DNA of 64,000 nucleotides from positions 12,634,632-12,698,631 of the forward strand of contig NC_087377.1 in assembly GCF_963675165.1 (NCBI RefSeq), given 5' to 3'. Made by a program: the position numbers and the translations under genes. This stretch comes from Halichondria panicea. Lineage: Eukaryota > Porifera > Demospongiae > Suberitida > Halichondriidae. Shown here piece after piece: positions 1,175 through 55,114 of the stretch. The stretch's first letter is position 1; each line of letters starts with the position of its first letter. The notes under the pieces are model-generated. The model was not told the DNA's origin. It worked only from the letters and a program-made list of their open reading frames with translations, and did not search any database.

Positions 1175-2114
1175 TCTCTTGCAAAGATTTCCAATAAAAA
1201 AGCATCAAGCTGTACTTCCTGTCAATTTCCGGTGCGACACGCATGGGCCGCGCGAAATCCATGTGTTTCCAATCCCTTCCCTTTACTATCTATGCTTGAA
1301 CTTGCTGCATGTTAGCAGCTAGCTAACACTATACACGCGGCCTTTATTCGAGGCACCCTCCATATTTACAGCTGAAGTGATCCCGTACCAAAAACAGTGG
1401 AAAAGGGTCACTACAATAGAAAGCTAGAATTGTGACTTGTTTGTTGCTCTGTTAGCTGACTCTGGGATCCTACTCCATCCAAGAGTCATACTTCTCTGAG
1501 ATTCTTTGCTGTGATCCTAGACTAGGACCTAGTTCACCTCATGTACCACTAAAACTCTGTTCTCAATGTTTCAGCATGTCTCCAGTCTGGTTTAGTTTTA
1601 TTGCTCCTGAGTTGCTGTGCTAGACAGCTCAGTCATACATCACTACATGCACTGCATTATATCACTCTTTTGGTTTCTTGTCACCAGCCGAGGGTTTGCA
1701 CTTCAGTGCTCTAGTTATATGTATGGATAAAATTACTTCAATTCAAAATCCTTCTTCACCAAGAAGTTGTGTGGCTATCCATGCTGTAAACGCAGTGCTG
1801 TGGCATCCATGCAGGTGAATAGAAAAGCTCATCACAAACAAACAAACAAACAGACCAACAGACTACTATGCCCGTGGTGGGTAATAATAATAATTAAAAA
1901 CAAAAGTTCAGCCTCTAATTAGTCAATCTTAAACGATGTTCGACAGCTATATAGGACCTCACAGACAATATTACTTCCTGCATAAAAAAAACATCAGCAA
2001 CTCAAGTAACAACAAACAGGTGATTCTATTTACGTAACAGTGCAATATTTGAGTGGATATATATATATATAAAGTTAAGAGCTTACCTGCAAATTTTGAC
2101 GAATAGGCATACAC
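1175..2114. other. No gene seen
   Basis: Intergenic. Nothing is seen beyond short AT repeats (TATATATATA near 2060) and an AAACAAACAAAC run near 1840. It separates the frameshifted fragment on the left from the 3' end of the short Ig gene A. Confidence 0.45.
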
Positions 2115-4068
2115 CTAGATTATTGTTAGGACAATTGTTGCAGCTGAAAGAAGTACCCAGAACACGTATGCTGTTTTTATACCTGCAAGAATAGAATTGA
2201 TAGATGGTTCAACACTTTTTAGAAAAGCTTGAGAATGCGCCCTGGCAAATCTGGAAAAACCGTCAGGAGATTATTTACAATAAAAATTTGAGTAGCAATC
2301 AGGAAAAGTGAATAGTGTTTGCTAACCGCTCAATGTTAACAAGCCAGGATTTTGAGGAAGGGGTTATCATAGATGAAAGAGGGTATTAAGTGCCCGATTT
2401 TTAGCTGCGCAGTGTCGAAATTAATGGAAGCCATATATCTTATTAATGATGTCATAATCAACTTATCTACCTAGTTGGGCGTCGCCCATATAGAGCTAGC
2501 CTATTATTTTAGTAGATGTAAGCCAGAATAGCAAAGTTTAGAGTTTTGCTTGCCTACTAGCTAGCTAACTGCAGCGAAAGAGAAGGGGTGATCAGCCGGA
2601 TAATCAGATACATTTTCTTTGTGTTTGTAGGTGCTCGAGCACCCCTATTAGGCCATGATAAATTCTGCTCGTAGCATAATAGGTGTCAAAGGAAATAATA
2701 GGCTCAATGTTCATTTTTGGTAAAGATCATTACAGCAAGTTTTGCATAACGATGTTCTCATGGCAAAAAATGGCTGTAAGGTGGATCAGTTCAGTCAGCA
2801 AGAGATAACACTGAGAACCATGATAATTAATTATATTGTGTGTAAGCTGTGTGCTGTGTTTATGTCTACGTCTTAATTTTGTCTATAATTATTATGTCGC
2901 ATTTTTGGGAATAATCAGAGAATATTCGGATTTTTTCTGAGGCACAGAAAGAATAGGGTGAAAAAAAGCAGAGCCTAACCCCTATAGCACTCCCCCTGAA
3001 TGTATGCCATGTGAATGGAATTGTACAAGTAATCTGTTAATTGCCGGGGAAATTAATGAAATATTGGGCTACTTTAAATAGGAATTATTGCCCTAAATGC
3101 ATGGTTTTCGACCTTATTACTGTATATTAGCCACTAACTTTTATTTATCCGAATTGTGTCCGTCAAAACTCCATCGGTTGTCTGGTTACACTTGGATGTC
3201 ACTGTTATACGTGCGTAGACATCTATGGGAGCACTGATTGGTTCAGTAAGTATTGCTTCGTAACTATTCCTTTCTGCAGAAATATCGATGGATTTAATTA
3301 AAGTGTTATTCTCAAACACCTGGACCGTGAAGTGCCTACAGTCATAATTTCCATCATTATGTGTCCAGTTTATTCGCACACCAGCCATGTTATCTTTGTT
3401 AAAAGATCCTACCATAGGAGCCATCACATCTAAAGGAGGACCTATGGTAAAGAAATTAATGATTATGTTAATAGCTTGGTATATGCACCACACTTATCAA
3501 TCATCTCCAAGAGGATGATGAGTACACTTTAAATGCTTTGTTTACTGACTGAGTCTATCATAATTAATAGTACCTGAAGGTTTGTACCGAGCTACAGCTT
3601 GACCGGAAGTTGGGAGAACAGTGCATTGAACAACAAACTCTGGCAATGAAGAATTCACTGTCAAGTTTGCTACCATCAAAGGTGAATCAGTTGATATAAG
3701 AGTTATTACAATAGGGCCTCTTTGACGTGCTACTCCCGGAGAGTCCAATTCACGCACATACAACACAGGAGTGTTTGAGTTAACGTATGGTGGTGCTGAT
3801 AGCCTCATTTGATCTCCAGTTCCATTGCAGACATAGGTAACCTTCTCTCCTGGACAAACATACATTCTGTTTTGCAGAGAAGATGTAATGGTCATCTGAC
3901 CAGACACATTTACAATCAGATATCCTCCTAGAAGTAGAACTGACCAAATCACTGATCCCTATTAAAACGGCAGACAGTTGGGAAACAAGACAGATAGTAT
4001 TAGTATATAGCTAGTATGCTAGGACTCATTTATAGCTTCTATAATCGACTTACCATTGACATTGCCAT
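2115..4068 (-). CDS. Gene A: short Ig + FN3-like surface protein, possibly GPI-anchored
   Basis: Four exons on the minus strand: 4054-4068, 3574-3958, 3139-3441 and 2115-2182 (771 nt, 256 aa). All introns have GT..AG borders; the first is phase 0 and the rest phase 1. A signal peptide ends near VNVSGQ. The first domain is Ig-like (cysteines in MYVCPGE, VTYVCNG and EFVVQCTV). The second is FN3-like, starting PPLDVMAPMVG, with INWTHND and many N-glycosylation sites. The last exon encodes TAYVFWVLLSAATIVLTII and then the stop. With no basic residues after it, this could be a GPI-attachment signal or a tailless membrane helix. Gene B at 27174-28617 is a close paralogue with the same exon layout. 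The start at 4068 lies 330 bp from the divergent start of R1. Ligand unknown. Confidence 0.65.
2652..2986. mobile_element. MITE of the 'TAGGCCCTGATAAATT' family, inside an intron of gene A
   Basis: The ends resemble TAGGCC.TGATAAATT on the left and the reverse complement (degenerate, AGCAGAGCCTA) on the right. The interior words TTTTTGGTAAAGATCATTAC, GTTTTGCATAACGA and GTGAAAAAAAGCA recur at 12970, 23870 and 25528. No coding capacity. It sits between exons 3 and 4 of gene A. Confidence 0.5.
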
Positions 4069-4397
4069 TGGAGTTTTAAGGATCTCTATGAAATATATCC
4101 AGCCTAGTCTAGTCTATGTCTACGCGCGCTCAGCTAGCTAGCTAGCTCTAGGTACGTTAATGGTTTGTGTACGTCATTAGTCTACTAGTCAGGTGCTCTG
4201 ACAACATGGGTATTGAACCTGAATAATATTTGTACATGTAACTAGGGGTAGTACACTGGTGCAAGCAGAGTGCAAGGTCCTAGAATTTGCTTGGCTTATG
4301 ACGTAATGTAATGATCGGGCATATAAGAAGCTAGGTTTCAGAACAGAGGAGGTCGGACATCACTTGCAGTAGAGCTCACTGCACTAGATATGCGAGT

Positions 4398-7300
4398 ATG
4401 AGTCCACAGTCTCTCAGGTTCTACATCGATCTTGTGGTCATATTCTATGTATCTTCTCAGCTTGCCGTCACTGGTACATGGTATCTTGTATAGATAACAA
4501 GCTAGCTAGCTATAAGCTAGGTCGATTTATTCATTGATATGTGTGATTTATTTTCCTTTACAGAAGAATATTCAGTAAATGTGGAGAGACCATGTCCAAT
4601 GGAAACAGTCACTTTCACCTGCATTGCTGCTGGAAATCTCTTGAGATGGGAAGTGTCAGATAGTGATGATACTATCGAGATCCTCTCTACCTCTGATCTC
4701 AATGTACCCATCGGTGTATCAGGTTACACTGTGACACTAATTGCATTCAATGACACTACTTTAACATCTACTCTGTCAAGAACAGCAGAGAGTGTGATCA
4801 CTGTGTCCTGTGTGGGGCTTATGCCTGTAGGTACTATAGGGTCTATAACGATTCGTTTGGTTGGTGAGTTGCCGTTTATATATAAAGTATCTTTGTTGAG
4901 TCACGTTAACTATAGATCCACCGGGACCACCCTCCACCACAAGACACTCCACTTCAAGCAACTCGGCAGATGAAGTCAGTGTGACTGTTGATTGGAACCC
5001 TCCTACTGAGACTGGTGGTAGAGATGACCTCACCTACACAGTGACCATCTCACCTCTGGCCCAGCTCTCTGCAACTGTCCTCACATCCACCTCTGTCAAT
5101 GTGACTGCTCAATACAATGTGGACTACACTGTCAGTGTTGTGGCTACCAACTGTGCTGGGAACAGTACAACTGCTGACTACAACTTTACGATTGGTGAGT
5201 CGACATCGTCTTTAAACACCATACTATACCGTAATTACCGTATTTGATGTAATTACAGCGCCACCATAATTTAAGCGCCATGTCAGCATCAGTATAATTT
5301 TTTAGAAGCACCAACTGTTGCTGGAATTATTTTTTTCTGGCGCTTATAAAAAGGTTCGTTTGAGACATCAAGAGAACCATCCTGCACTTTTACCCTTCAC
5401 ACTTCGTCTTTAACCATTAATCAGGCTAGAAGAACACTACAACCAGCCCTTTGGGCTTCTAAATTATCCTAAACAGTGTCTAACTATTATGTAGAACATA
5501 AGCGCCACCATAATTTGCTGGGCTGAACGCAAGTTTTTTATGTTCTAAAAGATGCGCCACTCAGAAGTGGAATTAATTTTTTCTGGCACTGTAATTTCAT
5601 CAATTACGGTATTGACTCCCTCTCATGCAGGCAGCTGTCCTGTGTTGATCAACCCCATGAATGGAGCGTTTGGACCAACCACCAACAGTTTGCCAGGATC
5701 CACGGTAACCATCCAGTGCGACGCTGGGTATGTATCTGCTGTTACAATGGTGACATGTGAGGGTACACTGATGTGGAGTCCAGACCCTGAGGCTATTGAG
5801 TGTACATTACTAACCACACCTACTCCCACAATTCGTGAGTTAAGCTCTTGATTGTACAAATTATTATTTTTCACCTCACAGCTCCAATGAGCTGCACAAC
5901 TTCACTATCCCCACCACAGAATGGCACTATCAGTAATCGTTCAGCACCAGCTATTCCCGGTACACAAGTGACCTTCCAGTGTGATGATGGACTGTTCCCT
6001 GAGGGCATACTGACTGCCACCTGTCTAGTTACAGGAATGTGGGACAAGAACCCGGGGGAGATTATCTGCAGAAATGAGTCTAGTAAGTTTCCTGATTTAT
6101 GGTAGTTTGTCAATTATTTTGAATAACTAAAATTGAGCGTAACTTTTCAATTAACCTGTACCCAGTTTCATGTGCCCTGCCTGCCCCTCTACTCTATGGA
6201 GCTTTACTCAACACTAACTTTCAGAACACTAACCTAATGGAGGGCTCAGTCATTACCTTCCAATGTGATCCTGGGTTCTCACTGGTGGGTGCAGTGACTG
6301 CCACTTGTAACAACTCTGGTCTCTGGGATCCTGACCCGGCTGTATTGAGGTGTAAGTTCATTTTTGTTCTGTATGTGCATGTACATGTAACAGTGATGCA
6401 TAATGGCCTATTATATATAGGTGTGGCAGCGCCAACTGGTGGGAATGTTGCTGCTATAGCTGGAGGTGTTGCTGGTGGTATAATGGTCGCGTTACTTCTC
6501 ATTTTGTTGATAATAATTATCTTATTGGTGGTTCTCAGAAAGAGAAAAGGTGAGTTGACTAATTTTCTGGTACAAAAACTGATTACTTGTTTTCTCAGAG
6601 AGTGTGAGGCATAAATCAAATGACAGTATAGAAATGGATCATAGGTTTGATGTAAACGTAATGTGTGTAGTCTCTGTGTATTGTTATGAGCCATGCCTTT
6701 CATTACAGGGGGAATACAGTGCACTACAACACAATGGGCCGGTAAAGAACTCAAAGAAGGTTAGTTTTCTTGACTCGTTTTATACTCACTAACTCTTTAA
6801 TGCAGTGCCAGCCTCCAGCAGCGGATGAAGAAGGCTACAATAGAATCACTCATAATGTGGTGAGTATCAACGTATTGTGTGCATTAGCTTAATTATTGCA
6901 TCACCTCACAGAATCCTGCTTCACAGAATCCTGCTTCCCTCACCTATGATGAGGTTATCCTCAACAGTGATAAGGTGTATAGTATAACCTCATCAATACA
7001 CACCATTATGATGCTGCAATGATGACCATTCTTATAATTAACACAGAAAATAGCGGTCAATGAAGAGGGATACAGTGTGATGGACACTGGACAGGTATAT
7101 GAAACTCGTCTTGATCGACTCAATCATTTAACTCCACTGTTTGTATAGGGTGCTCAGAGGATGCCCGGCTATGGCCAGCTCGGCAATGTGGTGAGTGTGT
7201 GTGTGTACAGCCGTTAGTGAGAGTATTGTGACTAATGAGTGTTCGTTCTGTGGCATTATAACTAAAAGTTAAACAAATCATCAAAGTAAGTAAAGTAACT

Positions 7301-8484
7301 GTTTGTGTATAGTGTTAATTAGATGTGTCCTGTGTGGTGCATTAATTATACATTGCTTCACCGCAATATCCTAGCTGCTTTGCATTGTACAGATAGTCAT
7401 ACTAAATTGTTAATTTATATTGTAGGTACACTCTATAATTACAAGTAAGGCTATTCTTGTTCCCGACACCCCAGGCTACAGTGGAGCCGGTAATCTATGC
7501 TGCCCTTAGCACTAGCCAGCCTCGCAAGAAAGGGACTGCCACTGTGGATCATCATCAGGTGACCTACGCCACTGTGGATAGTGATGCTACCATACAACAG
7601 GAAGCTAAGGCAGCCATCCTCCCAACAGGTGAGTATGCTTGCGTAATTTTAAGATTCATTGTTCCATCATTGCACAAGCGCACAGCGGCATAATTATTGC
7701 TGGTATGTGTTTCACTTTGTGTGTCTGTCTGTATAGACTGCTATTATTATAATTATGATAGTCAATGAAGTGCGGTGGAAATTAGGTACCGTTCTAAAAA
7801 AGGAATAAACATAGCATGTTTACTCTAATAGCTTCAGGCCAGGCATCAGCACCCGTGGTGCTTTCGTTTTGATTATTGCATGTTTATTGTGTGTACTATG
7901 GTGCGTCCGTTCCGGGTAGTTTTGATTTAGAAATATCTATAGCGATCGAGTTGTGAGTTTTTCCCATTTTGAAATCTAGTGTTGTCTGTTCCTGGTAGTG
8001 AGGTCCCTAGCGAGTTATGAGTTTTTCCCATATTGTATGATTAAGAAGAAGTGTGCTTATAATGTTGTCTGTTCCTGGTAGTTTTGATTAGGAAGTTTCT
8101 ATCTTGTCTTCCCTAGTGTTTGTTTTGTCTGTCTGTTTCCTGGGTGTGTACAGCATGTCATTTCATCAGCTGATTAGGAGACAATGGGAAAACACAGAGT
8201 GCATCCCTGATAAGCTGTCAGCTTTATGGCTTCTGGTTTTACCCTTACCTTTTAAGGCACATAACCTTGTTATTGTTCATGAGTTACAAGCTGGTACTCA
8301 CTACTGCTATAGAGTCCCCAAGGCCATGATAGTGTTCATGGTTTGAGTGTTGTGAGTTGTAGCTTTCATTGCTTCCTCTAGTACTGGCTTGTAGTGCTGC
8401 CCTGAAGCTGTAGCATTGCCTACTGCAGTTTTAATAGTTAGTGCAGATGTTATCATCATTAGTGTTCAGCTTATGAGTTTTTGT

Positions 8485-8515
<31 letters not shown>

Positions 8516-8594
8516 AACACACACACACACACACACACGCACGCACGCACGCACACACACACACACACACACCACACACACACCACACACACAC

Positions 8595-8680
<86 letters not shown>

Positions 8681-8740
8681 ACACACACACCACACACACA
8701 CACCACACACACACACACACACACACCACACACACACACA

Positions 8741-8810
<70 letters not shown>

Positions 8811-9592
8811 CCTCAGCCCCAGCCCTGCCTGATGTTGACAAGCTCCTGGACATTGACCAGGCCTTGGTCCAGATCAGGTCAATGCAGCACAAATGGAGGG
8901 AGCTGGCTGAGACTATGAGGGTGCCAGAAACAATGATTGAACAGGTATGTAGTTGAATCTATCAAGGGTCAAGCATTGATAGTCATCAGGAGTACATGAC
9001 ATTTACATGTACAGTACATGTAGTGTACATACATACATGTACTTAGTGGTGTGAAGGAATGTGTTGTTTACATAGATAAAGTAGAAGTGCACTCTATTGT
9101 TGATCAGCTACTCACTCAAATATCTCATTTTAGATCGAGGATTCATGTGGAATCAACCATGGTGGCTGTCTAACGGAGGTGATCGACCAGTGGATGAGGA
9201 GTTGCTCTGGGCGACCAACCTGGAGAGAGCTGGCTGGTCATCTCCATAATATTGGAGAGGAGCAATTGTCACAAGAACTCATGACTATCTACGATACTGG
9301 TGAATAGAATAGTGGTTTCACGTGTGTTGCTTGAAGTGTGGCCCTGCTACATGTATATGAAGTCATAATGATTATTGTTTGCTGTCCGATAGATTATGGT
9401 TTGCTCCTGACAGTAACGTATAACTTTCACTAATAAAATAATGTTATTGTATTAATTAGAGAGCTGTATATGGTGTGTGTATGGTGTGCTTAGAACAGAG
9501 ATCTTTGCTAAAAGGATTACTTCTACAACAAGGTTTATTTACTCCATGCATATTTAAAATTCCACATGTAGTGACACACACACACACTCACA

Positions 9593-9651
<59 letters not shown>

Positions 9652-9719
9652 ACACACACACTCACACACACACTCACACTCACACTCACACACACACTCA
9701 CACACACACACACACACAT

Positions 9720-9813
<94 letters not shown>

Positions 9814-9818
9814 ACACA

Positions 9819-9877
<59 letters not shown>

Positions 9878-10379
9878 CGTCTCCCAGTGGAGTTGAACAT
9901 GAAGGCAGTACCAAGTACCGTGTACAAGTACGACCGAGCCCCTCCCCCTCCCCTCCCCTCTCGATCACCCACAACGACAGATGACGACCCCGGACTACCA
10001 AAGCTTCCCTCACGTCCCCCTAAAGCGTAAGTTGATTGAATGCACGAACATGCTCCCATGCATGTAACTAATTACCACTATAATAATGTTTACAAAGTTG
10101 TTAATTGTGGGCAAACGTTAATCCAACGAAGGGATGGTGGTGTCAGTAGGTTGGGTTAATATCATTGTGCATCAAGTACACTCCCGTGTCCGAGTGCTAG
10201 CTACAACTATATAATGTGCATCAAACAACACACTTTTAATTAGCTTAGCTACTTAAACATTATTCCTTCCCCTATACAGAGCTGGTGCGGCAATGGTTCC
10301 AGCCCGTCCCCCTAAATCAGCCCATAACAATGAACCTCCAGTACCTGCACGCCCGTCCAAGCAATATGCGAAGCATTAG
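4398..10379 (+). CDS. R1: Ig-FN3-CCP(x3)-TM receptor with ITIM-like tail, Death domain and proline-rich C-terminus
   Basis: Eighteen exons: 4398-4473, 4564-4863, 4916-5194, 5631-5834, 5882-6082, 6166-6351, 6421-6549, 6599-6651, 6709-6759, 6806-6859, 6912-6974, 7047-7094, 7149-7190, 7475-7628, 8811-8944, 9134-9299, 9876-10026, 10280-10379. The sum is 2391 nt, an open frame of 796 codons, with every junction in phase. Order: signal peptide (1-25), Ig-like (26-125), FN3 (to 218), three CCPs (to about 415, each ending in a WxPDP-type Trp and Cys), membrane helix near 425-450 followed by RKRK, tyrosine tail (459-613), Death domain (614-713: LLDIDQAL, KWRELAETM, PTWRELAGHL), then SH3-ligand motifs (PPPLPSR, PKLPSR, PARPPK, PPVPAR). 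Ectodomain junctions are all phase 1, tail mini-exons all phase 0. VIYAAL, VTYATV and LTYDEV fit the ITIM consensus. Probable role: membrane receptor coupling SH2, SH3 and death-fold partners (inferred). Exons 1-14 could also stop early if exon 16 is retained through TGA/TAG at 9301-9305. Confidence 0.82.
5226..5613. mobile_element. MITE in R1 intron 3
   Basis: The left end reads ACCGTATTTGATGTAATTAC and the right end is its imperfect reverse complement (GTAATTTCATCAATTACGGT). Inside, GCGCCACCATAATTT occurs twice in direct orientation. It fills almost the whole intron between the FN3 and first CCP exons. Confidence 0.55.
8489..8810. repeat. (CT)n then (CA)n microsatellite ending at the R1 exon 15 acceptor
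   Basis: A short CT run (8489-8514) is followed by about 295 bp of CA repeat with scattered CC and CG interruptions. The final CACACAG is the 3' splice site of the first Death-domain exon, so the repeat takes the place of a normal polypyrimidine tract. Open frames across it (Thr-His or Cys-Val repeats) are artefacts. Confidence 0.9.
9573..9875. repeat. (CA)n microsatellite ending at the R1 exon 17 acceptor
   Basis: About 300 bp of CA repeat with CT interruptions. As at exon 15, the terminal CACACAG is the acceptor of the next coding exon (GTCGTCTCCC..), here the proline-rich exon. Confidence 0.9.
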
Positions 10380-10962
10380 GTACTGGAGGTACTGGGTCAT
10401 AACTTGTTAGTGCAAGAATCAACTCATATCCTTTAGGTGACATATTTTCATAGGTAGTAGCTAAGTGTGTGGTAGAATACAACAAACATTTTAGTGTTAG
10501 TACAAGAATCAACTCAATACATGAACTCAAGCTTATTATCCCCCGTAGTTCAGTCACAATCACTTAATTGTCAGCTTACATGTTTAACATGTTAAGAAAG
10601 TTTTAGGTTATTTCTCTCAATTCACTTTTACTCAAACATTTTTTATCGATCACTGCTTGTATCAAGAACATTATTTTGTGCACATACAATTATAGTGTAC
10701 TGTACATGTCTGCTGTCTGTTGGTTGATGGACATAATAATGCTAAACAGTCAACATACCCTATCAGGGTTTCATCTAGTATAACCTGTGTTTCATACGCC
10801 TCCATAAGTGTCCTCTGTTCTTGTGTGATGCATGTGTGTAGATGTGTATCCACTCACTATACATGTATGGCGTACTGTTTATGATCATGGCGTTATGATA
10901 TTATTATTTCTAACTCTGGTTTGTTTCTATAGATATAAATTGTATAGGAATTCCTGTTTTGG
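10380..10962. other. Downstream of R1, no gene seen
   Basis: Presumed 3' flank of R1. A degenerate direct repeat (TAGTGCAAGAATCAACTCATA, then TAGTACAAGAATCAACTCAATA) lies at about 10408-10520. No open frame has domain support. Confidence 0.45.
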
Positions 10963-11795
10963 TACTGTATACTCTGTTTGCTATACTGTATACTCTGTTT
11001 GCTATACTGTATACTCTGTTTGCTATACTGTATACCCTGTTTGCTATACTGTATACCCTGTTTGCTACTGTATACCCTGTTTGCTATACTGTATACCCTG
11101 TTTGCTATACTGTATACCCTGTTTGCTACTGTATACCCTGTTTGCTACTGTATACTCTGTTTGCTATACTGTATACCCTGTTTGCTATACTGTATACCCT
11201 GTTTGCTACTGTATACTCTGTTTGCTACTGTATACCCTGTTTGCTACTGTATACCCTGTTTGCTATACTGTATACCCTGTTTGCTACTGTATACCCTAAT
11301 TGCTATACTGTATACCCTGTTTGCTATACTGTATACTCTGTTTGCTATACTGTATACCCTGTTTGCTATACTGTATCCCCTGTTTGCTACTGTATACCCT
11401 GTTTGCTATACTGTATACCCTGTTTGCTATACTGTATACCCTGTTTGCTACTGTATACCCTGTTTGCTATACTGTATACCCTGTTTGCTACTGTATACTC
11501 TGTTTGCTACTGTATACCCTGTTTGCTATACTGTATACCCTGTTTGCTACTGTATACTCTGTTTGCTATACTGTATCCCCTGTTTGCTATACTGTATACC
11601 CTGTTTGCTACTGTATACCCTGTTTGCTACTGTATACTCTGTTTGCTATACTGTATCCCCTGTTTGCTACTGTACACCCTGTTTGCTACTGTATACCCTG
11701 TTTGCTATACTGTATACCCTGTTTGCTATACTGTTTGCTATACTGTAACCCTGTTTGCTATACTGTATACCCTGTTTGCTACTGTATACCCAGTT
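10963..11795. repeat. Minisatellite of alternating 21-bp and 19-bp units
   Basis: About 40 tandem copies of TATACCCTGTTTGCTA plus TACTG (21 bp) or TG (19 bp: the TA of the linker is missing). Point variants are CCC/CTC, TATCCCC and one AATTGCT. The 21-bp unit is a multiple of three and free of stops in three frames, which explains the long YTVYPVC-type open frames; they are not genes. Confidence 0.92.
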
Positions 11796-14089
11796 TAATA
11801 TAATTGTGTAGCCAATATCGGCCTGAGATTTGCCTGTCATTTCCTGTCTGCTTATGTCACTTCCTCTTATTATTGGGTGTGTCTGGAATTCACTGGGGAG
11901 CCCCTGTGATTATGGTCTACTCACTGATTGGTGTTTCCATAGCAAAGCTTGTGTATCTGAATTAAAATTGTGTACTCAGACTTTGAACATTGGTGGGAAG
12001 CTTGAGTGCTTTTATGGCATGTACTTTTAATGTTTCCGTAATGCATCGTTGGACTCTACACAGAATCTTATAATAGAATGCTATATATAACCTCTAATTG
12101 TTCTTTATATGTACACGTACATGACAAGGCTTTCAGCACATGACAATCAACACACTTGACACAATGCCGATTGTTCTCTACATTAAGTGCTGTACATAGC
12201 ATGTATCTATAGGTGGGCAGGCATGCACTAATGCATGTTGGTTTTTCCTGCTATGAAAGCAGTTAGTATGACCATGTTAGGTTATAAAGTGAACGTAAAG
12301 TCCGTTTACTTTCCTGCATGGTTGTTTATGTATGCATGTGATGCCAGCAGCTGTGTATGGGTGTGTATATAATAATGTATTGCACATGTTCACACGTACA
12401 TTATCGCTAGGAAATGTTGATGTTCAATACAATTAATAGTTGTTGTCATTCTCATGGGATAGTTATTATAGGAAGATTATTGTCTGTTTGGGGTAGTTGG
12501 CGTATACTTATTTCACTGAAAATAGTTTCTATAATAACATTAATTTTAATGGCTGGTGGTTTACCCTCTTTGAATGCTGTAAACGCATTCATTTGCCTAG
12601 TAACTATTGAAGGGGGGAGTAACTGCATCTAAGGACATTCATTAGTCTTCCTCCTTTCCAAGTAATGCTATGAATTTTCATATTTCTAGGGCAGCTCTCC
12701 AGATGTCCAGCCACAAAATCTTTCAAATGCCTAGGGGCCAACGGTGCCTAAAAATTAAAAGGGTCATTTAGCAAAGTGAGAGACTGTGATAACAAAGCTA
12801 TAGGGAGGGACGGGAAATAATAATAAACACACGCTTTGTTTTGACTACCACTATGACTATGGAGCAATAACACATTGTGCACAGTATGCTCATGCATGGC
12901 TGTATGCATGTTGACCTATATTTGCCTGTGGTAAGAGTCACTATAGTAGTTAAGTGAGAGTTTAGGCCCTGATAAATTATGCTGGGAATAATTTTAGCAT
13001 AATAATTATGTCCAAAGAATAAAATAGTCATCAATTTTGACTCTTGGTAAAGATCATTTCATTAAGTTTTGCATAACGACGTCCTAATTCTGAAGGTGCA
13101 TGATCAATTCAGCAAGACAATAATTGTGTCAGTTGTGTGCTGGGTTTACGTTACCTCTTAATAATAGACGTAAGATAGGTGTCACTCTTTACCTAAGCAG
13201 CTCAATAGTGTCTAAAGTATATGTAGTATATATTCACTCGTGAACATACACAAGATGAATAGCTATGCTCATACCGGTACCATCATTATTTTGAACTTTA
13301 CAGCAATTGTACAAAAAATAATTTAAGTGATACAATTGGCATGGTGCAAGACTACAATAAAAAAATGAAGTACAATTAACCGTCTCTTTAGGTGAAACTG
13401 GTGCATCAGATGGAAGTGATTTTTTTATCATATCATACTCAAATTTTGTTGAGGTGATCTTTCCATGATTATTATTGTCACTTGTGATGATAGAACTCCT
13501 ATAGATCTCCCTGAGAGTTGGTATGATATAGGTATGTACCAATTATTTATTATGACTTGGTGCCATCAATAATAATTATTGATACAAACGTGATATCTGT
13601 TCGATATTTAGTAAGCCAGTACCACAAAGAGAGTGTAATTCCCATGTTCCACTGCAATAGCTTTAGGATCATGTACAACAGTGTTAAAAGCTTTCTTAAA
13701 ATCTAGAAGTTCTCTAGCCTCATTTCCAAGCTGCAATACATCAGTACACTAACTTGAAATCGAGACTAGAGGACAGTTAGCCTCATGCAGGTTCCCTGCA
13801 TGAGACATTTTTCGTTTGTAACTCCTCTCGATCCGGTTCCTTTCCAATTATCAGCCTTCGTGGTTACGAGAGATCGAGTTCCTGGTCCACCTCCCCACAG
13901 AGGAGAGACAACCACATCCATATACCCGACAAAAAATTGCATGACCCTTTATCATCTCCATCAAATGATGGTTGTAATTGCATGACCCTTTATCATCTAA
14001 TAATTATGTCCATCAAATGATGGTTATAGATTGCATGACCCTTTATCAGACCTTGTCTCACTTGATGTTTATTGTGTAGTGGGTCTTTA
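11796..14089. other. No intact gene; one MITE fragment and short direct repeats
   Basis: 12974-13190 matches the TAGGCCCTGATAAATTATGC MITE family on its left side only. At 13930-14050 a unit reading GCATGACCCTTTATCATCT occurs three times with TCCATCAAATGATGGTT between copies. The rest is AT-rich with no supported coding sequence. Confidence 0.45.
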
Positions 14090-17555: not shown

Positions 17556-18210
17556 TTACAGTCCGACTGGTCCATACGCCTGGTTAGTGTTCAGCTCAAT
17601 CTCCTCTTTGGGTGACACCTCTTCATAAACAGGGCCAGCTGGTACAGTGGGTCTTAAGTTAGTTTGTCCTTCAGCTGCTGGGAAGTACACTGCTTTCTTA
17701 CGAGAGCAAAGGTGCATCACTAAGAGTCCAGTGAGGAATCCAATGACTGTGAAAGCAACTGCAGTGACAACCACACTGATAGAAAGAATCTCTCTGGTAA
17801 ATAGGGTGGGTGATTGAACTGTGCATGGGAGGAGGCAACATTTTTAGAGTGAAAAATATCAGTATAGAGAGTTCCAATAGACAATGGGAGGGTGTGCATC
17901 ACAAGAGTAAACTATATAAGACTATGATTATAGCTATTCATTTAGTTATAATCATAAAAGGTTCTTTCTTGCATCAGCTTATAATTATATAATTATAGTG
18001 TATACGTACAACTTCTAGATACACAATCCAATAGAGCCGGGTCAGGATACCAAAGACCAGAGTTGTTACAAGTGACAGTCACTGCACCCACCAGTGAGAA
18101 CCCAGGATCACATTGGAAGGTAATGACAGAGCCCTCAATTAGGTCAGTGTTCTGATTGTTGGTGTTGAGTAAAGCTCCATTGAGTGGAGGGGCAGACAGG
18201 GCACAGGAAA
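17556..18210 (-). pseudogene. Gene C: 3' fragment of a CCP-TM receptor with a YEEV/YGPV tail
   Basis: Two minus-strand exons are visible: a CCP exon (18010-18210) and a membrane/tail exon (17556-17818), joined in phase 1. The CCP (SCALSAPPLNGALL, FQCDPGFSLVGAVTVTC) matches the third CCP of R1. The membrane helix (VVVTAVAFTVIGFLTGLLVM) and tail (GPVYEEVSPKEEIELNT, NQAYGPVGL) match D and E. The donor that keeps the terminal CCP cysteine is GTACGT at 18009. No upstream Ig, FN3 or CCP exons are seen; beyond the acceptor at 18211 lies Crypton-like and repetitive sequence, so the gene is 5'-truncated here. It could still serve as an alternative tail only if transcribed from elsewhere. Confidence 0.65.
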
Positions 18211-18370
18211 CTGAGACCCAGCCCACATCCTTCCCTGCTTCCTTCCAAACCAGCCACACCTCCAGCTCTGTCTTTGCAGCAACCAGCCCCACCTCCATAT
18301 CTGCTGCAGTAACCAGCCCCACCTTCCTATCTGCTCTCTCTGACCTGCAAGACAAGAGTTCGTAGACTAT

Positions 18371-38398: not shown

Positions 38399-40212
38399 TC
38401 ACAGTCCCACTGGTCCATATGCTTGATTAGAGTTCAGTTTAATCTCCTCTTTGGGTAACACCTCCTCATAAATAGGACCAGCTGGTACAGTGGGTCCAAC
38501 GTTAGTTTGCTTCTTAGCTAGGAGATACACAATTTTCTTCCGCATGAACAAATACATTATCAGGAGACCAAGACCAAATCCAATGATCGTGAACAGAGCT
38601 GTCGTGACAACCACACTAACGGAAACAGCAGTACCAAGGTCAGTACGAGTGAATAAGGTGAGAGGTTGAGCTGTATAAGTGGATCCATCAATGTAGATAC
38701 ATGAATACAAGTGATGAATGAATATACACAGTAAAAACAGATACGTTATAATAACATAAAACATCTCAAATAAAATGCATCATTTGAAATTTAATGTAGA
38801 AATGACATAAATTTCTGTCATTTTAACACTAAAATACGATGATGCATCCCATATAACATATGTGTTTTTGCTGTGTACACTTGCCTCCGCAGATAATCTC
38901 CCCCGGATTCTTGTCCCACTCTCCTGTAGCTAGACAGGTGGCAGTCATTATCCCCTCAGGGAACAGTCCATTGTCACACTGGAATGTAACTTGTGTAGCG
39001 GGAACAGCTGGTACAGAATGATCACTAATGGTACCGTTCTGTGGTGGGCCTAGTTGAACAGTGCACCTCATTGGAGGACCTGCATGGAATTATAAGCGAA
39101 GAGAGAGCTAGCTAGATTAGCTTCTTAGAAGATTCTTATAACTCACGAGTTGAAGGAGGAGGCTGGATTATTGGTGAACACACAATAGCTTCAGGGTCAG
39201 GACTCCACATCAGTGTTTGACCATTACATGTCACCATAGTATTAGGAGACCCAAACCCAGCATCACATTGGACAATTACTTCAGATCCTGGCAATCTGCT
39301 AGTGACTGTTTCAAAGGCTCCGTTCATGGGGTCAGTAGTCAACACAGGACAGATTTCTGAGAGAAAAAATGGTACGTACTAATTGATAGGGAAAAGATTA
39401 CATTATAATAGTACCAATCCTGAAGTTGTACTCAACAGTTGTACTGTTCCCAGCACAATTGATAGCCATAAAACTGACAGTGTAGTCCACATTGTATTGA
39501 GAAGTCATAGTGACAGAGGTGGATGTGAGGACAGTAGTAGAGAGCTGGGCCGGAGGTGAGACAGTCACTATGTAGGTGAGGTCATCTCTACCACCAGTCT
39601 CAGTAGGAGGGTCCCACTGTACAGGTACACTAACTTTATTGGCTGAGCTGCTCAGAGTGAAGTGTCTTACGGTGGAAGGTGGTGCTGGAAAATCTATAAT
39701 GGGATGAACCCATTGTGCAAAGACCTCCAGACTAAAGTGCTCAGACGCTCTCCTGATAAAGTGCGACCGATTCATTATTTTATAGCTGCATGTATGCATG
39801 CAACTCACCAACCAAATTAATTGTTGAAGATCCTATAGTATTTAAAGTAGGCACAAACCCCACACAGGACACAGTGATCCCATTCTTTGCTGTTCTTGAC
39901 AGATTAGATGTTAATATAGTATCATTGGCTGCGATCAGTGTCACAGTGTAACCTGATACACCGATGGGTACATTGAGATCAGAGGTGGAGAGGATAGTGA
40001 TGCTAGTAACATCTGACGGCTCCCATCTCAAGGCATCTCCAAGAGCAGTGCAGGTGAAAGTGACTGTATCCATTGGACATGGTCTCTCCACACTCACTGA
40101 ATATTGGGCTTTACAAAGCATTCAATGCGGACATTCTAATGATGGAGTCGTTCTTACCAGTGGCACTGGCAGTGCTAAAGCCAGCCAGGAGGAGAACTCT
40201 AACCAAGTTCAT
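38399..40212 (-). CDS. D: Ig-FN3-CCP(x2)-TM receptor with YEEV-like and YGPV tail motifs
   Basis: Six minus-strand exons: 40158-40212 (signal peptide MNLVRVLLLAGFSTASAT), 39809-40108 (Ig), 39415-39693 (FN3), 39147-39356 (CCP1), 38885-39079 (CCP2), 38399-38670 (membrane helix and tail). They total 1311 nt, 436 aa, all phase 1. Ig and FN3 exons have exactly the same lengths as in R1 (300 and 279 nt) and share long stretches (STSDLNVPIGVSGYTVTLIA, PPTETGGRDDLTY, QYNVDYTVS). The tail differs completely from R1: GPIYEEVLPKEEIKLNSNQA then YGPVGL. The intron between CCP2 and the membrane exon starts GCAAGT rather than GT; reading on instead would give a short tail-less product (38829). YEEV resembles the pYEEI ligand of Src-family SH2 domains. 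Probable role: surface receptor paired with R1. Confidence 0.8.
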
Positions 40213-46811: not shown

Positions 46812-48374
46812 AAGCCTCTTTAGTGTCCAACACAAGTGTGGCGTGTCCTGGAGAGGCAGTTCTGTTCACATGCTCTAAGCCTGCCACTGCATTAAGATGG
46901 CAAGTGGATCCTCCAGCGGAGTCTGGGTTGATGTCAGTACAAAGTACAATCTTCCTTGGTTCTAATGTCGGTCGAAGGGACACATTTGGATCAGGAGTGA
47001 TCACGTTTGAGGCTGTTCTTGTGAGCAATGATGGTAGAACTGTGACGTCCACCCTCATCAACCTCAGTGAAGTGTCTGTACTGGATGGTAGCAATGTCAC
47101 CTGTACTAGTACTGTTACTAATGGTGGTGTAATAGAGTTACAACAGACAGTCATAGTTGCTGGTAAGTATACTTACCCAATATTCTGTTGAGACAAATCT
47201 TGAACTTGCAGTTGCTCCAACTGCTCCACTCAACCCAAGACTGTCTGCCGCTCAAAATCAAATCAGTTCATCCATTGTCACTGTATTATGGGATTCTCCC
47301 TTCTTTACTGGTGGTGTGTCTGTCAGCTATATCCTCATCATCTCCCCAACACCTCTCTCCGGGTCACCAGTCACCGTGGAGACCACCTCGGCACAGATAA
47401 TCATCTCCTATAACACTCCCTACAATGTGAACATCAGAGCTGTCAACTGTGCTGGATCGAGCAGTGATGTGATGCCAATGATTCCTGCTATTGGTATAAT
47501 TATTTTGTACTAACCTTAACCCTAACTTTTGTCTACTGCAGTTACCTGCCCCTCCAACCCAACACCTGCCAACCGAGTGACCATCAATGGTGCTCCTCCA
47601 CTGCCTGCACTAGTAGGATCAACTCTTAGTTTCACTTGCAATGGACAGATGGTACTAGCAACCTGTGAGAGTGATGGACGATGGTCACCTGACCCCACCA
47701 CATATGACTGTCTCTCAGGTAAGGTGCATGTATATTATCATGACATCACTAGTTTTCCCCTTCCACGATTCGGTAGCTGATTAGTTGAATGCTTGTGCAT
47801 GTGCAGCTGATTGAGATGGTACTTTTTGGCCTTCCATATAATTATTACAGTGCACTGCTCTCTTCCTCTTGAGCTGTGCAACGGTGGTATAGTGGACTAT
47901 GATAGGTTGAACAAGACAGTGTTGGAGGGAACAGTGCTGACTTACCAGTGTGACAATGAATTCTCATTGACTGGACCCAACAACATCAATTGTACTAATG
48001 CTGGACTCTGGAGTATTGAGCCTGAGGCAATCAAGTGTGTACTTAGGACTAAAGGTTTAGGAGTTATTTATTCCATAATGAATAATTATGACTATCTGTT
48101 TTACAGGTTCTACAGTCGCCATCCTATCTACTGGTGAAGCTATCGCTATAAGTTTTGTCATAACTTTCATTGTTGCTGCAATTCTTGGATTCCTTGCTGG
48201 ACTCCTAGTGATGCACCTTTGTTCTCGTAAGAAGGCAGTATATACTCTCCAGCAACTAAAGAACAAGCTAATATAGGACCCACTGCACCAGTTGGTCCTG
48301 TTTATGAGGAGGTGTCACCCAAAGAGGAGATTGAACTGAATACTAACCAGGCGTACGGACCTGTTGCACTATAA
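46812..48374 (+). CDS. E: Ig-FN3-CCP(x2)-TM receptor with a frameshifted tail
   Basis: Exons 46812-47162 (Ig: VACPGEAVLFTCS, LRWQVDPPAESG), 47212-47493 (FN3: SVSYILIISPTPLSGSPVTV, AVNCAGSS), 47542-47718 (CCP), 47851-48054 (CCP) and 48107-48374 (membrane helix GEAIAISFVITFIVAAILGF.. and tail). All junctions are phase 1. After CSRKKAVY the frame ends early at 48276. The reading two bases over still encodes GPVYEEVSPKEEIELNTNQA and YGPVAL to a stop at 48374. Compared with C, the copy has two extra bases in TATATAC. The protein as written keeps its membrane helix but loses both tyrosine motifs. The first exon with the signal peptide was not found with confidence; 46600-46800 is the likely place. 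Ig and FN3 are closest to G, not to R1/D. Confidence 0.65.
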
Positions 48375-51485: not shown

Positions 51486-52499
51486 TTAAATGTTAGTGTA
51501 CCCACCATATTGATCAGGCCTGTTGCGATTTCTTTGCGGATATTGTCGAGCTGTTAATGCACCAGTCGAGGGTGACTCATCAGGTGGGGTCGGAGACGGA
51601 TCAGTTGACTGATCAGGGGAAACTTCAAAATCTTGCAAATCCTTGTGAGCTGCCGTATCGTCGAAATCGTTTGGATTTGTTATATCGTCTTGTGACGACT
51701 CGGTGGTGGAAAGAGAATGAGTTCTATCACGTATGTGGTCGATATGTCGACGTAGTATCCTGCCATCACCAATTTCCACTTTGTAAGATACTGGTCCTGT
51801 CTGTTGTACAATGCTTCCTGGAAGCCATGTACCGTTTGTTCGGAAATCTTTGAGCATTACTTGTTGACCAACAGAGAACGTCCTTGGTTTAGCATGTTTG
51901 TTATGTTGCTGTTTCTGTTTCATCTGCTTGTCAGATACGTTTCCCTCTGTGTTTGGTTTGAGGAGATCGAATCGTGTACGTACTTTTCTTTGAAGGAACA
52001 GTTCACTCGGTGAGACGTTAGTGGTAGCATGTGGAGTTGAGCGGTATGACAGTAAAAACTGAGCCAATCTTGTTTTCAAACTCAGTCCTTCTCTCTCTCC
52101 AGCTTTCATGGCTCTTTTGAACGTTTGTACAAATCGTTCAGCTTGGCCGTTCGTGGAGGGATGGTATGGAGCACTTCGTATGTGTCTTATGCCATTGGCT
52201 TGAACAAAATCGCTAAATTCTTGGGATGTGAATTGTGCACCATTGTCGGAAACAATCTGTTCTGGTAGTCCATACCGAGCAAATAGTGCTTGCAGTGCCT
52301 CGATCGTGTTTTGAGACGTAGTGGAAGACATCTGAATCACTTCTGGCCACTTGGAATGGGCGTCTACAACCACTAGAAACATTTTGTTCAAGAATGGACC
52401 AGCGTAGTCAATATGGATCCTTTTCCATGGGCTGTTTGGCCAAACCCAAGGATGGAGTGGTGCTACTGCAGGTTTAGAGGCTTGTTCCTGGCACGATAG
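51486..52499 (-). CDS. Gypsy integrase core and C-terminal region (downstream of the in-frame TGA)
   Basis: Continues the pol frame after the stop at 52500. Shows the integrase DDE core: VVVDAHSKWPEV (D), VSDNGAQFTS (D) and YHPSTNGQAERFVQ (E), then a chromatin-binding-like C-terminal part with KDFRTNGTWLPGSI and VEIGDGRILRRHIDHIR. The segment from 52499 to 52392 is open but has no Met until 52391. Ends next to the purine tract. Confidence 0.85.
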   Translation of the reverse strand, partial: LSCQEQASKPAVAPLHPWVWPNSPWKRIHIDYAGPFLNKMFLVVVDAHSKWPEVIQMSSTTSQNTIEALQALFARYGLPEQIVSDNGAQFTSQEFSDFVQANGIRHIRSAPYHPSTNGQAERFVQTFKRAMKAGEREGLSLKTRLAQFLLSYRSTPHATTNVSPSELFLQRKVRTRFDLLKPNTEGNVSDKQMKQKQQHNKHAKPRTFSVGQQVMLKDFRTNGTWLPGSIVQQTGPVSYKVEIGDGRILRRHIDHIRDRTHSLSTTESSQDDITNPNDFDDTAAHKDLQDFEVSPDQSTDPSPTPPDESPSTGALTARQYPQRNRNRPDQYGGYTNI

Positions 52500-55007
52500 T
52501 CACGCTTTTGCTTGGTTTTCGATGTCTTTATCGAGTCCACTCCACCACACGTAACTGCGGGCAATAGCCTTCATTCGGGACATTCCAGGGTGGTTCTCAT
52601 GGAGAGCACGAAGGGTCTTTGCATGCAGGTTCTGTGGAATGATTGTGCGAATTCCCCACATCAAGCAACCACTTTCGATGCCAATTTCAAGACGGCGGTT
52701 GAAATATGGTTGTAGATCCGGTGTCACTTTCTGTGGCCATCCTGATTTGACATACTTTAACACCTTGCTTAAGGTTGGGTCACGTCGGGTAGCCGTCTGC
52801 ACCTGCTGAGATGTTACAGGAAGAGCTTCGATTTGAGCCACATTGAAAGTGTGAATAGCATTAATGTCAGCCGTTTCGTACGAATCTTGTACTGGCAAGG
52901 GGAGACGTGATAATGCATCAGCATTGCTGTGTGCTTGAGTGGGCTTGAATTGGATATTGTAATCATAACCTGAGAGAAAAATTGCCCAACGTTGGAGACG
53001 AGCAGCTGCTAGGGACGGTATTCCTTTCTTTGGGCCAAATATAGCTGTCAGAGGTTTGTGATCAGTGATTAACGTGAATTTCCTGCCATACAAATACTGG
53101 TGAAACTTCTTGGTACCAAATACCAATGCCAGTGCTTCTTTCTCGAGTTGAGCATAGTTTTGTTCGCTTGTCGTTAGCGTGCGTGAAGCAAAACAGATTG
53201 GTCTCTCAGCCCCGTCTGGTAGTACATGAGAAATAACGGCTCCAATGCCGTAGGCTGACGCGTCCGCAGCCATGTTGATTGGTAGGTCCGGGTCATAGTG
53301 GGTGAGCACATCAGATGATGTAAGTTGTTTCTTTGCTTCTGTAAAAGCTTCCTGACATTCCTGTGTCCATTCCCACTTATGACTCGCTTGCAGAAGTTGG
53401 TTGATTGGGTAAAGGATGCTAGAGAGATTCTTGATGAACTTTCCGTAGTAGTTCAGCAACCCGAGGAAGGAGCGAAGTTCTTGAACATTCTTTGGTTCTG
53501 GAGCCTGTGCAATAGCATCAACTTTACTTGGAAGAGCTTGGATTCCCTCTTTGCTGATCTGATGACCAAGATATTCTACCGACTTGGCCAAAAAGATACA
53601 TTTTTCCTTCTTCAATCGCAACCCGTGTTCCGTAAAAAGTTTGAGGACTTGCTCCAGATTGTGTAGGTGGTCTTCTTCATCCACTCCTGTTATCAACAGA
53701 TCGTCTAAGTAGCAGATAACGTGAGGCACTCCACGTAGGATGGTGTCCATCAGTCTTTGGAATATTGCTGGGGCTGACGCCACGCCAAAAGGAAGTCGGC
53801 TGAACTGGTATAACCCTTGATGGGTGTTGATAGTCACGTATTTGGTAGAGTCCTTATCGAGTTCGACCTGTAGATACGCTTGTGACAAATCAAGCTTAGT
53901 GAAAAGGGAGCCATTTGCTAGTGTTGCGAATAGGTCTTCGGGTTTAGGCAAGGGGTACTGATCAACTTCAAGGTCTTGGTTGATAGTCACTTTATAGTCG
54001 CCGCAGAGTCGAAAACGTCCGTCTTTCTTGGGAACTGCGACCAACGGTGCTGCCCAGTCACTGCTAGGTATTTTCTGGATGATACCTTGTTGCTCCATGC
54101 GGTCCAATTCATCTCCAATAGCCTCTTTGGTTGCATAAGGAACAGGACGTGGTTTGAAAAACCGAGGAGTAGCATCTGGCCGTACTCTGAGAGTGGCTTT
54201 GTGTGAGGTCACAGTACCTAACTCGTCCTTGAACAATGAATCGTATTCGTGTAACAAATTCTTTAGTGTACCTGCAGGGGGAGATTTGACAGTTGCAATA
54301 CATTTCCAGTCCAACTGGAGGTACTTCAGCCAATTGCGTCCAAAAAGACTTGGTCCACTTCCAGCAACCACCACCAGCACCAGCCGAGCCACCTGTTCTC
54401 CATAATTAACACACACATTAATCTGACCCGTTACCATCATAGCCTCATCTGTATATGTCTTTAGCAAAATATTTGACTTACGCAGCTTGAATTTAGAGAA
54501 CTTGGCCTTTCTGGTGGCCTCAGAGATAATAGATATTGCAGCTCCGGTATCGATTTCCATCTTGAGTGGAGTATCCTCGATCTTGACTGTAACTGTGATC
54601 GGCTGTGTAGAAGGCTCGGTCAATCGGTATAGGTGGTAAGTGTCAGCTTCTGAGTCGGTCGAGCTGTTCCCATCTGGTTCCACTAGGTGAGTTTTGAATC
54701 GTCTCTTCTCTGTCTTCTTGAACTGAGAGGGTGGGTTGGAGCGGCAGGCTGGTGCTATGTGTCCCTGCTTTCCACATGAGTGACACTCTGCATCCTTGAA
54801 ACGGCAATCAGCTGCAGAGTGATTCGACTTTCCACAGCGGTAACAAGGTTGGTTTGGCTGCGGTCTCCTTTTGCTTTGTATGCTCTTGATGGAGGGGTTG
54901 CTGGCCTTGAGTGCTCTGGTGTTGCTTTCTGCTGCTTCCATTCCCTGTGCGATTTCCATTGCTCTCTTCAAAGTAAGTTCTGTTTCGGCTAATAGTCTTC
55001 TTTGCAT
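52500..55007 (-). CDS. Gypsy gag C-terminus and pol (protease, RT, RNase H, integrase zinc-binding part)
   Basis: 835 codons from the first Met. Two zinc knuckles (CYRCGKSNHSAADC at 55-68, CHSCGKQGHIAPAC at 75-88), protease active site EIDTGAA (153), RT with PKKDGRFRLCGDY, LPFGVASAPAIFQ and the catalytic YLDD (433-436), RNase H with AADASAYGIG and ITDHKPL, then the integrase HHCC zinc site (HENHPG). The frame is open upstream of this Met to about 55125, so the real translation starts in gag. It ends at a TGA placed where the third zinc ligand (the first Cys of the pair) is expected, followed directly by LSCQE. Probably a nonsense change. Confidence 0.9.
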   Translation of the reverse strand: MQRRLLAETELTLKRAMEIAQGMEAAESNTRALKASNPSIKSIQSKRRPQPNQPCYRCGKSNHSAADCRFKDAECHSCGKQGHIAPACRSNPPSQFKKTEKRRFKTHLVEPDGNSSTDSEADTYHLYRLTEPSTQPITVTVKIEDTPLKMEIDTGAAISIISEATRKAKFSKFKLRKSNILLKTYTDEAMMVTGQINVCVNYGEQVARLVLVVVAGSGPSLFGRNWLKYLQLDWKCIATVKSPPAGTLKNLLHEYDSLFKDELGTVTSHKATLRVRPDATPRFFKPRPVPYATKEAIGDELDRMEQQGIIQKIPSSDWAAPLVAVPKKDGRFRLCGDYKVTINQDLEVDQYPLPKPEDLFATLANGSLFTKLDLSQAYLQVELDKDSTKYVTINTHQGLYQFSRLPFGVASAPAIFQRLMDTILRGVPHVICYLDDLLITGVDEEDHLHNLEQVLKLFTEHGLRLKKEKCIFLAKSVEYLGHQISKEGIQALPSKVDAIAQAPEPKNVQELRSFLGLLNYYGKFIKNLSSILYPINQLLQASHKWEWTQECQEAFTEAKKQLTSSDVLTHYDPDLPINMAADASAYGIGAVISHVLPDGAERPICFASRTLTTSEQNYAQLEKEALALVFGTKKFHQYLYGRKFTLITDHKPLTAIFGPKKGIPSLAAARLQRWAIFLSGYDYNIQFKPTQAHSNADALSRLPLPVQDSYETADINAIHTFNVAQIEALPVTSQQVQTATRRDPTLSKVLKYVKSGWPQKVTPDLQPYFNRRLEIGIESGCLMWGIRTIIPQNLHAKTLRALHENHPGMSRMKAIARSYVWWSGLDKDIENQAKA

Positions 55008-55114
55008 TGCTTCGCTTCGGAGTCCTGCAACGAAACGGTCACGTAGGGCTTCAGTGAGATACGCCCCAAAATTGCAGTGTGTTGCCAGCTTGCGTAGAGC
55101 TGCATCGTATTCTG

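Follow-up and report, generated by a model that had tools for sequence, protein, structure and literature searches.

A predicted receptor chain of the sponge Halichondria panicea with paired inhibitory-type tyrosine motifs and a Death domain, member of a clustered family with two tail types

In regard to receptors that dock SH2 phosphatases or carry a Death domain, several described systems can be set beside the gene analysed here. It lies at positions 4398-10379 of a window of the demosponge Halichondria panicea (the whole stretch of DNA that was analysed, 64,000 nt, C1:12,634,632-12,698,631, C1 being contig NC_087377.1 of assembly GCF_963675165.1), and its sequence supports a single chain with a Sushi/FN3-like ectodomain, a transmembrane (TM) segment, a pair of motifs resembling the immunoreceptor tyrosine-based inhibitory motif (ITIM), a Death domain and a tail of SH3 ligands. 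In the tunicate Botryllus schlosseri, the FcoR/fester genes form a clustered multigene family with Ig and Sushi domains, a TM segment and a long tail holding ITIM, YxxI/L/V or hemITAM motifs (the last named after the immunoreceptor tyrosine-based activation motif, ITAM), and many of the FcoR loci reportedly encode SH2 domains; unlike in the sponge gene, neither a Death nor an FN3 domain is mentioned in the accessible part of that review (PMC12065747). The Alr family of Hydractinia, comprising 41 genes (PMC11999971), is likewise a clustered Ig-superfamily family with ITIM and hemITAM on candidate genes (PMC12065747), but its ectodomain is different, and the accessible source text reports no Sushi or Death domain. 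Both likenesses are ones of described architecture. The same review argues for ITIM/ITAM signalling as a point of convergence between the unrelated allorecognition receptors of Botryllus and Hydractinia (PMC12065747).

SHP docking or an ITIM-like motif together with a Death domain on one chain is already known from UNC5 and CD95, as far as the accessible parts of the sources describe them. The netrin receptor UNC5C combines an Ig-type ectodomain, recruitment of SHP2 by phosphotyrosine and a Death domain (PMC6080411), while CD95/Fas is a TM receptor with a FADD-type Death domain and an ITAM/ITIM-like motif at Tyr291, which sits inside the Death domain (PMC4572867). Unlike the sponge chain, UNC5 receptors carry TSP1 and ZU5 domains; neither of these, nor the TNFR cysteine-rich domain, gave a Pfam match at E<=1 in the sponge chain. 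The TNFR cysteine-rich domain builds the ectodomain of CD95 and other death receptors, the vertebrate ITIM receptors (PECAM-1, SIRP-alpha, LILRB) have tandem ITIM-type motifs without a Death domain, and we know of no UNC5 receptor with a tandem ITIM pair or in a two-tailed cluster.

The author of an earlier note on this DNA had known of no described animal receptor with this domain order. The order Ig-like/FN3/Sushi, TM, ITIM-like pair, Death and PxxP, and its two-tailed cluster, were indeed not found in the accessible text of the literature searched, which lay mostly outside subscription papers, but the combination of SHP docking and Death has the precedents of UNC5C and CD95. In two other sponges, genes with Sushi, FN3, Ig and Death domains are among transcriptome responders (PMC6208332), and the expressed receptor repertoire of H. 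panicea varies between individuals (PMC8242945); the accessible parts of these two papers do not describe the present architecture. To judge from these sources, the gene is a variant of the ITIM-type paired-receptor kind, and what is new is the domain order and its two-tailed cluster. The best reading is that of one arm of a paired-receptor-like complex, for which we infer SHP2 binding, inhibition and a ligand; within an extensive clustered H. panicea receptor family with two tails, the gene probably represents the long-tailed (ITIM/Death) arm, its own tail presumably acting as a brake.

The exons of the gene, all on the + strand, are the following.

4398-4473, +, exon 1: start and signal-peptide-like segment, read from sequence, with the start as in NCBI protein P0001
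4564-4863, +, exon 2: N-terminal domain of Ig-like pattern, with no Ig profile match in this copy
4916-5194, +, exon 3: FN3-like domain, 20.6 bits (cut-off 25)
5631-5834, +, exon 4: Sushi/CCP domain 1, by Pfam profile
5882-6082, +, exon 5: Sushi/CCP domain 2, by Pfam profile
6166-6351, +, exon 6: Sushi/CCP domain 3, by Pfam profile
6421-6549, +, exon 7: TM segment with basic stop-transfer, read from sequence
6599-6759, +, exons 8-9 (6599-6651 and 6709-6759; one exon in isoform X5): juxtamembrane part, Y479 (EYSAL)
6806-6859, +, exon 10 (6812-6856 in isoform X5): Y504 (GYNRI)
6912-6974, +, exon 11: Y523 (LTYDEV), ITIM-like or Nck-type
7047-7094, +, exon 12: Y541 (GYSVM), YxxM
7149-7190, +, exon 13: Y556 (GYGQL)
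7475-7628, +, exon 14: tandem ITIM-like pair VIYAAL (Y570) and VTYATV (Y593), spaced 23 residues
8811-8944, +, exon 15: Death domain, first half
9134-9299, +, exon 16: Death domain, second half
9876-10026, +, exon 17: proline-rich SH3-ligand tail, PPLPSR, PKLPSR, SRPPK
10280-10379, +, exon 18: proline-rich tail, PARPPK, PPVPAR, then stop

The 18 exons were re-derived with GT/AG borders and join in phase, as the earlier note had read them, into 796 codons with a single terminal stop. P0001 (LOC135347907 isoform X5, 812 aa, whose cluster represents 17 member sequences) is a letter-for-letter 17-exon join of window DNA with the same start codon position, and the two models differ at exons 8-10 only: P0001 reads through intron 8, giving one exon at 6599-6759 and 19 additional residues, and has the shorter exon 10. 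The joins of exons 14-15 (7628 to 8811), on which the earlier note had staked its reading, and of exons 16-17 are identical in the NCBI model. Alternatively, the region could hold two transcription units, a receptor ending after exon 14 and a separate gene for the Death domain and the PxxP tail, fused in prediction only; exons 14 and 15 are indeed separated by a 1.2-kb intron, 293 bp of which are a CA repeat, and a stop and an AATAAA follow if the Death exon is read on. Such a split is very improbable, since splice phases fit across the exons, NCBI joins them here and in nine other family proteins (all from one prediction pipeline), and the exons are found together at 13 loci and in order in the paralogues L039 and L041. 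A mere mis-joining of genes was rejected on the same grounds.

Read past its donor, exon 16 runs into a stop at 9305-9307, with AATAAA at 9432-9437, which may mark a short isoform ending after the Death domain; many paralogous Death-exon matches likewise contain TAG stops. CA-repeat tracts of about 300 bases each (8517-8809 and 9574-9874) abut the splice acceptors of exons 15 and 17.

The cytoplasmic tail carries the three motifs to which the earlier note had drawn attention, LTYDEV, VIYAAL and VTYATV (starting at residues 521, 568 and 591), and all fit the ITIM-like pattern [ILVS]xYxx[ILV]. In 20,000 shuffles of residues 456-613 the mean was 0.25 matches (P 0.0007 for the three found), and all seven tail tyrosines have L, I, V or M at +3 against a shuffle mean of 1.2, with 0/20,000 shuffles reaching seven. 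VxYAxL and VTYATV are kept in 10/10 family tails (the window's own included), in nine of the ten at a spacing of 23-26 residues; the 23 residues of the window copy resemble the distance between Y663 and Y686 of PECAM-1. Invariant columns in exon 14 number 10 of 12 inside the motifs and 11 of 39 outside them (Fisher P 0.001, a nominal value, as the rows are related paralogues). Out of 19 exon-14 loci counted on C1, 18 were read, and all 15 complete stop-free copies keep both motifs, the remaining ones being two with a stop (VIYVSL and VTYATV) and one partial copy (IYISL and VTYASV). A chance origin of the motifs was rejected, being opposed by both the shuffles and the paralogue conservation. 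The Pfam profile SIT, of a SHP2-interacting transmembrane adaptor, matches four of ten members (best 6.9e-4; P0001 only at E 0.19), which may be explained by TM and tail composition. A protein search that needs shared 5-residue words, and in which sponge coverage may be sparse, gave no relative beyond H. panicea for the tail at E<=0.001 or for the Ig-FN3 part at E<=0.01.

It is also conceivable that such a tail is a positive multi-adaptor scaffold, in which YDEV would bind Nck, YSVM would bind PI3K, YAxL/YATV would bind SHP2 as a Ras/ERK activator, RxxK/PxxP would bind Grb2-type SH3 domains and the Death domain would serve an NF-kB-type complex; RPPK resembles a Grb2/Gads-type SH3 site. Seven of seven tyrosines with a suitable +3 residue exceed the needs of a simple ITIM receptor, Y523 reads YDEV in 7/8 family proteins having it, Y541 reads YSVM or YSTM in 7/7, and each of the nine tails examined (P0001-P0009) has two or more RxxK. 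We nevertheless regard the scaffold as somewhat unlikely, since the VxYAxL/VTYATV pair is common to all ten proteins, whereas YDEV and YxxM are missing from P0009 and P0010.

The Death domain, as the family sequences present it, is borderline alone and clear with the family. The Pfam profile gives 16.7 bits on the whole chain, under the cut-off of 22.6, and 22.7 bits on residues 614-713 alone, where the earlier note had placed the domain, barely over the cut-off; a piece seven residues longer gives 22.4. In the family, however, 11/11 pieces match at E<=0.1 (best 4.5e-7), and a PDB search with a profile built from 11 family sequences returns FADD chains at E 7e-6, FADD being the nearest solved relative. 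Two Death pieces from the divergent genes described below exceed the cut-off (25.2 and 30.3 bits), and among whole proteins P0008 lies above it (23.6), P0004 and P0005 below (16.1 and 19.7). The domain is common in H. panicea, with at least 148 matches genome-wide. In the proline-rich end that follows, PxxPx[RK] has six overlapping matches (starts 738, 755, 758, 771, 783, 786), four of them non-overlapping, in agreement with the four ligands counted earlier.

These results bear on another explanation, that the protein resembles UNC5 or Fas in being mainly a death or dependence receptor, with the Death domain as its output and the tyrosines only tuning it. The Death exons are low in nonsynonymous divergence (dN 0.010 and 0.008 vs L039; 0.030 and 0.008 vs L011), FADD is the nearest solved relative, FADD is reported in the H. 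panicea proteome (PMC12345144), and UNC5C offers a precedent for SHP2 recruitment plus Death (PMC6080411), both within the accessible parts of these papers. We consider such a receptor unlikely, as the motif pair is present in 10/10 proteins, whereas P0010 lost half of its Death domain.

The ectodomain, described earlier as Ig/FN3/CCP, stands in part. Three Sushi stretches are clear (Pfam E 3.9e-21) and place it among Sushi/CCP proteins, the fn3 profile remains below its threshold, and the Ig label is unproven by profile. No Pfam Ig profile matches the first domain of the window copy, and of eight family pieces (that of the window gene among them) a single one reaches Ig_2, at E 0.028. A nine-sequence profile of this domain gave 42 PDB matches at E<=10, none of them significant; the top three rows are not Ig, and most others are antibody chains, several from one antibody. 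C10, C19, W28, L70 and C82 are invariant in 19 aligned rows, and in an 8-row alignment that includes a more distant copy only the first C, the W and the L stay so. Calling the domain Ig outright was rejected for want of support from the profile searches, and it is best described as having an Ig-like pattern. Among 15 close Ig-like domains, mean entropy is 0.64 bits in the BC, 1.10 in the C'-D and 1.24 in the FG-like stretch; the values for two framework stretches are 0.20-0.29, and that for the last strand is 0.56. With stretch borders set by eye, without a structure, variation thus appears mostly concentrated in BC, C'-D and FG-like stretches.

The earlier note spoke of a single receptor. One chain is supported, but the gene is not a lone one: it is one member of an extensive clustered family in which two tails occur. 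The observation itself is confirmed, and its interpretation as a whole partly supported. In the 131-Mb assembly (39 contigs), 124 tail-exon matches were found, 111 of them on C1 at 11.4-14.5 Mb and 13 on C2, C5, C7, C8, C11, C12 and C14; 77 of these rows were typed as anchors (40 Death, 19 ITIM, 18 PxxP). At 13 loci (window's included), ITIM, Death and PxxP exons share a strand and neighbours are no more than 6 kb apart; a fourteenth locus extends over about 7.4 kb. A further twenty groups, not counting the two divergent genes, consist of Death exons alone and may be relics. In the paralogue L039, exons 2-18 are all present in the same order, except the TM exon, and the exons of L041 are also in order. 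The second tail, short and of the type YEEV...NQAYGPLGL, has at least 149 exon matches within C1 11.25-14.93 Mb, 3/149 with stops; this is a lower bound, as 150 of 292 candidates were scored and all 150 matched, a single C7 row being excluded from the anchors.

Ig-exon anchors numbered 115 of 128 rows, the excluded ones being a row on C32 and 12 rows that were the second piece of a split exon; in 79 a short tail follows downstream within 8 kb, in eight an ITIM/Death tail. Several long-tailed genes carry another, P0004-like ectodomain, which is poorly found by the Ig-exon query. Eleven short-tailed sister proteins have Ig-FN3-Sushi ectodomains, 52-81% identical over Ig-FN3, with YEEV in 11/11. 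Clustered genes, alike ectodomains and different signalling tails, by which paired receptors are recognised, are therefore all found in this family. The label ITAM was rejected for it, as 13 residues separate YEEV from the next YxxL/V in the common short tail, a gap that ITAM spacing excludes. Four further relatives of the gene lie in the window itself.

38402-40109, -, short-tail receptor gene of YEEV type: Ig-like exon 39810-40109, FN3, Sushi, tail 38402-38593
17559-18289, -, short-tail receptor fragment: Sushi exon and tail
46820-48371, +, related receptor: P0004-like ectodomain, short-tail similarity at the end
59685-60873, -, related ectodomain, P0004-like, by sequence similarity

Related to this, ectodomain and tail diverge differently between paralogues. 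By the Nei-Gojobori method (own script; 2,000 codon bootstrap replicates), the ratio of nonsynonymous to synonymous divergence (dN/dS) between the window gene and L039 is 0.68 in the ectodomain (382 codons) and 0.22 in the tail (320 codons), and against L041, with its exon 6 excluded as a cross-match overlapping the exon 5 match, 0.69 (321 codons) and 0.26 (208 codons). The ectodomain failed to exceed the tail in 5/2,000 and 0/2,000 bootstraps, respectively. Against L042, which has no ectodomain, the tail ratio is 0.31 (210 codons). At the sequence level, the tail is under purifying selection including its Death and PxxP exons, which argues that these exons are coding.

The two divergent genes, at C1 14.43 and 14.51 Mb, have a tail with two Death domains and a proline-rich end, and Sushi, TM and Ig-like stretches were read in them by eye. 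Their Death pieces share 42-54% identity with that of the window gene. Both genes hold PVYSEV (YxxV, not the ITIM pattern) and VDYTTV (which fits it) between their two Death domains, and VSYAMV precedes the first Death domain at 14.51 Mb and is not in the open frames listed at 14.43 Mb. The arrangement thus predates the recent duplicates.

Candidate partners are present in the genome. An SHP2-type gene (L044, C3:8.404-8.406 Mb) has an N-SH2 part, C-SH2 and protein-tyrosine phosphatase (PTP) exons in order on one strand, the makeup of a host SH2 phosphatase. Its best match is PTPN11 (C-SH2 E 5e-50, N-SH2 part E 2e-33); the first PTP piece alone is nearest to LAR-type enzymes and then to SHP-1/SHP-2, and the SHP2-type assignment is therefore based on the SH2 pair together with the exon order. 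At C7:1.623 Mb a DED exon precedes a Death exon, making a candidate FADD-type gene, and in H. panicea explants changes are described for a partial FADD-like gene as well as several unknown proteins with a Death domain, according to the accessible part of that study (PMC9798719). Elsewhere in the genome, PTP domains are strongly expanded on C4, which holds most of the listed rows of 176 matches.

If the gene is indeed the long-tailed arm of a paired-receptor-like complex, ligand binding would cluster the receptor, and a Src-type kinase would phosphorylate the tail tyrosines. The paired motifs could then engage the tandem SH2 domains of the sponge SHP2-type phosphatase, which would restrain signalling, possibly that of the short-tailed sisters. 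The Death domain might nucleate a death-fold complex with a FADD-type partner, and the proline tail might hold SH3 adaptors. Such a chain would couple a brake (phosphotyrosine/SHP2) and a death-fold output under one recognition event, partly as UNC5 does. A wider proposal, which we put forward only tentatively, is that the 3.7-Mb C1 cluster is a sponge recognition complex of the allorecognition or natural killer (NK) receptor kind, its ITIM-SHP2 plus Death arm being opposed by the far commoner YEEV-tailed arm with related ectodomains.

Several observations weigh against the braking-arm reading. The membrane-proximal tyrosines are not universal (Y479 in 5/10 proteins, Y504 in 7/10, Y523 in 8/10, Y541 in 7/10, Y556 in 8/10), P0009 and P0010 lack all five, and P0010 is without the second half of the Death domain. 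LTYDEV resembles an Nck SH2 site, and YSVM a PI3K site, and they may serve those SH2 domains; LTYDEV may be suited to an Nck-type domain instead. SHP2 can also act as a positive regulator. No relative of the tail beyond H. panicea appeared even at E<=10 among the 7994 candidates sharing most words. In the cluster, 28 of the 115 Ig anchors are without an assigned tail and only the eight mentioned have an ITIM/Death tail. The TM runs of the short-tailed proteins are uncharged in 10/11, and P0011 has none, so these proteins are unlike classical activating partners that pair with adaptors. On the divergence side, the comparison with L040 (ectodomain 0.25, tail 0.18) gives little contrast, with ectodomain dS saturated (2.4), and dS in the L041 pair is 0.23 in the ectodomain versus 0.55 in the tail, which makes its dN/dS contrast less simple. 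The two parts of L041 have therefore different histories, and the difference suggests exon exchange between paralogues, as if ectodomains were swapped between tails.

A sponge family with a conserved docking pair of SHP2 type, an SHP2-type gene in its genome, two tails and a faster-changing ectodomain would extend the ITIM/ITAM convergence to another early animal phylum. If the proposals above are true, tandem-ITIM/SHP2 braking of a diversified recognition family would be placed at the sponge level, and a receptor type with brake and death output on one chain would be added. The family is a concrete candidate for sponge self/non-self or microbe recognition, with named genes, motifs and a chromosome interval.

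Some further features were noted around the gene and the cluster. About 330 bases upstream lies a head-to-head neighbour (2100-4075, -) whose open pieces read as an Ig-like exon (CPGEKVTYVC; no Pfam match for this piece), an FN3-like exon and, before a stop, a short hydrophobic end; it may be a receptor that lacks a cytoplasmic tail. Downstream, a 61-base unit forms a long tandem array at 10953-11796. Between 11.7 and 13.6 Mb of C1, a short-tailed gene sometimes has, immediately upstream of its Ig exon and in the other orientation, a lone Death-exon match (for example 11738859- beside 11739543+, 11820016- beside 11820696+), as if one duplicated unit had spread. Five short Death-exon-like matches on C11, C2, C14 and C7 are nearly equal in extent (query residues 94-133 or 96-133, 58-61% identity) and are perhaps borne by a mobile element. 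Finally, two long adjacent open frames of 337 and 913 aa at 51486-55241 (-) of the window possibly represent a transposable element.

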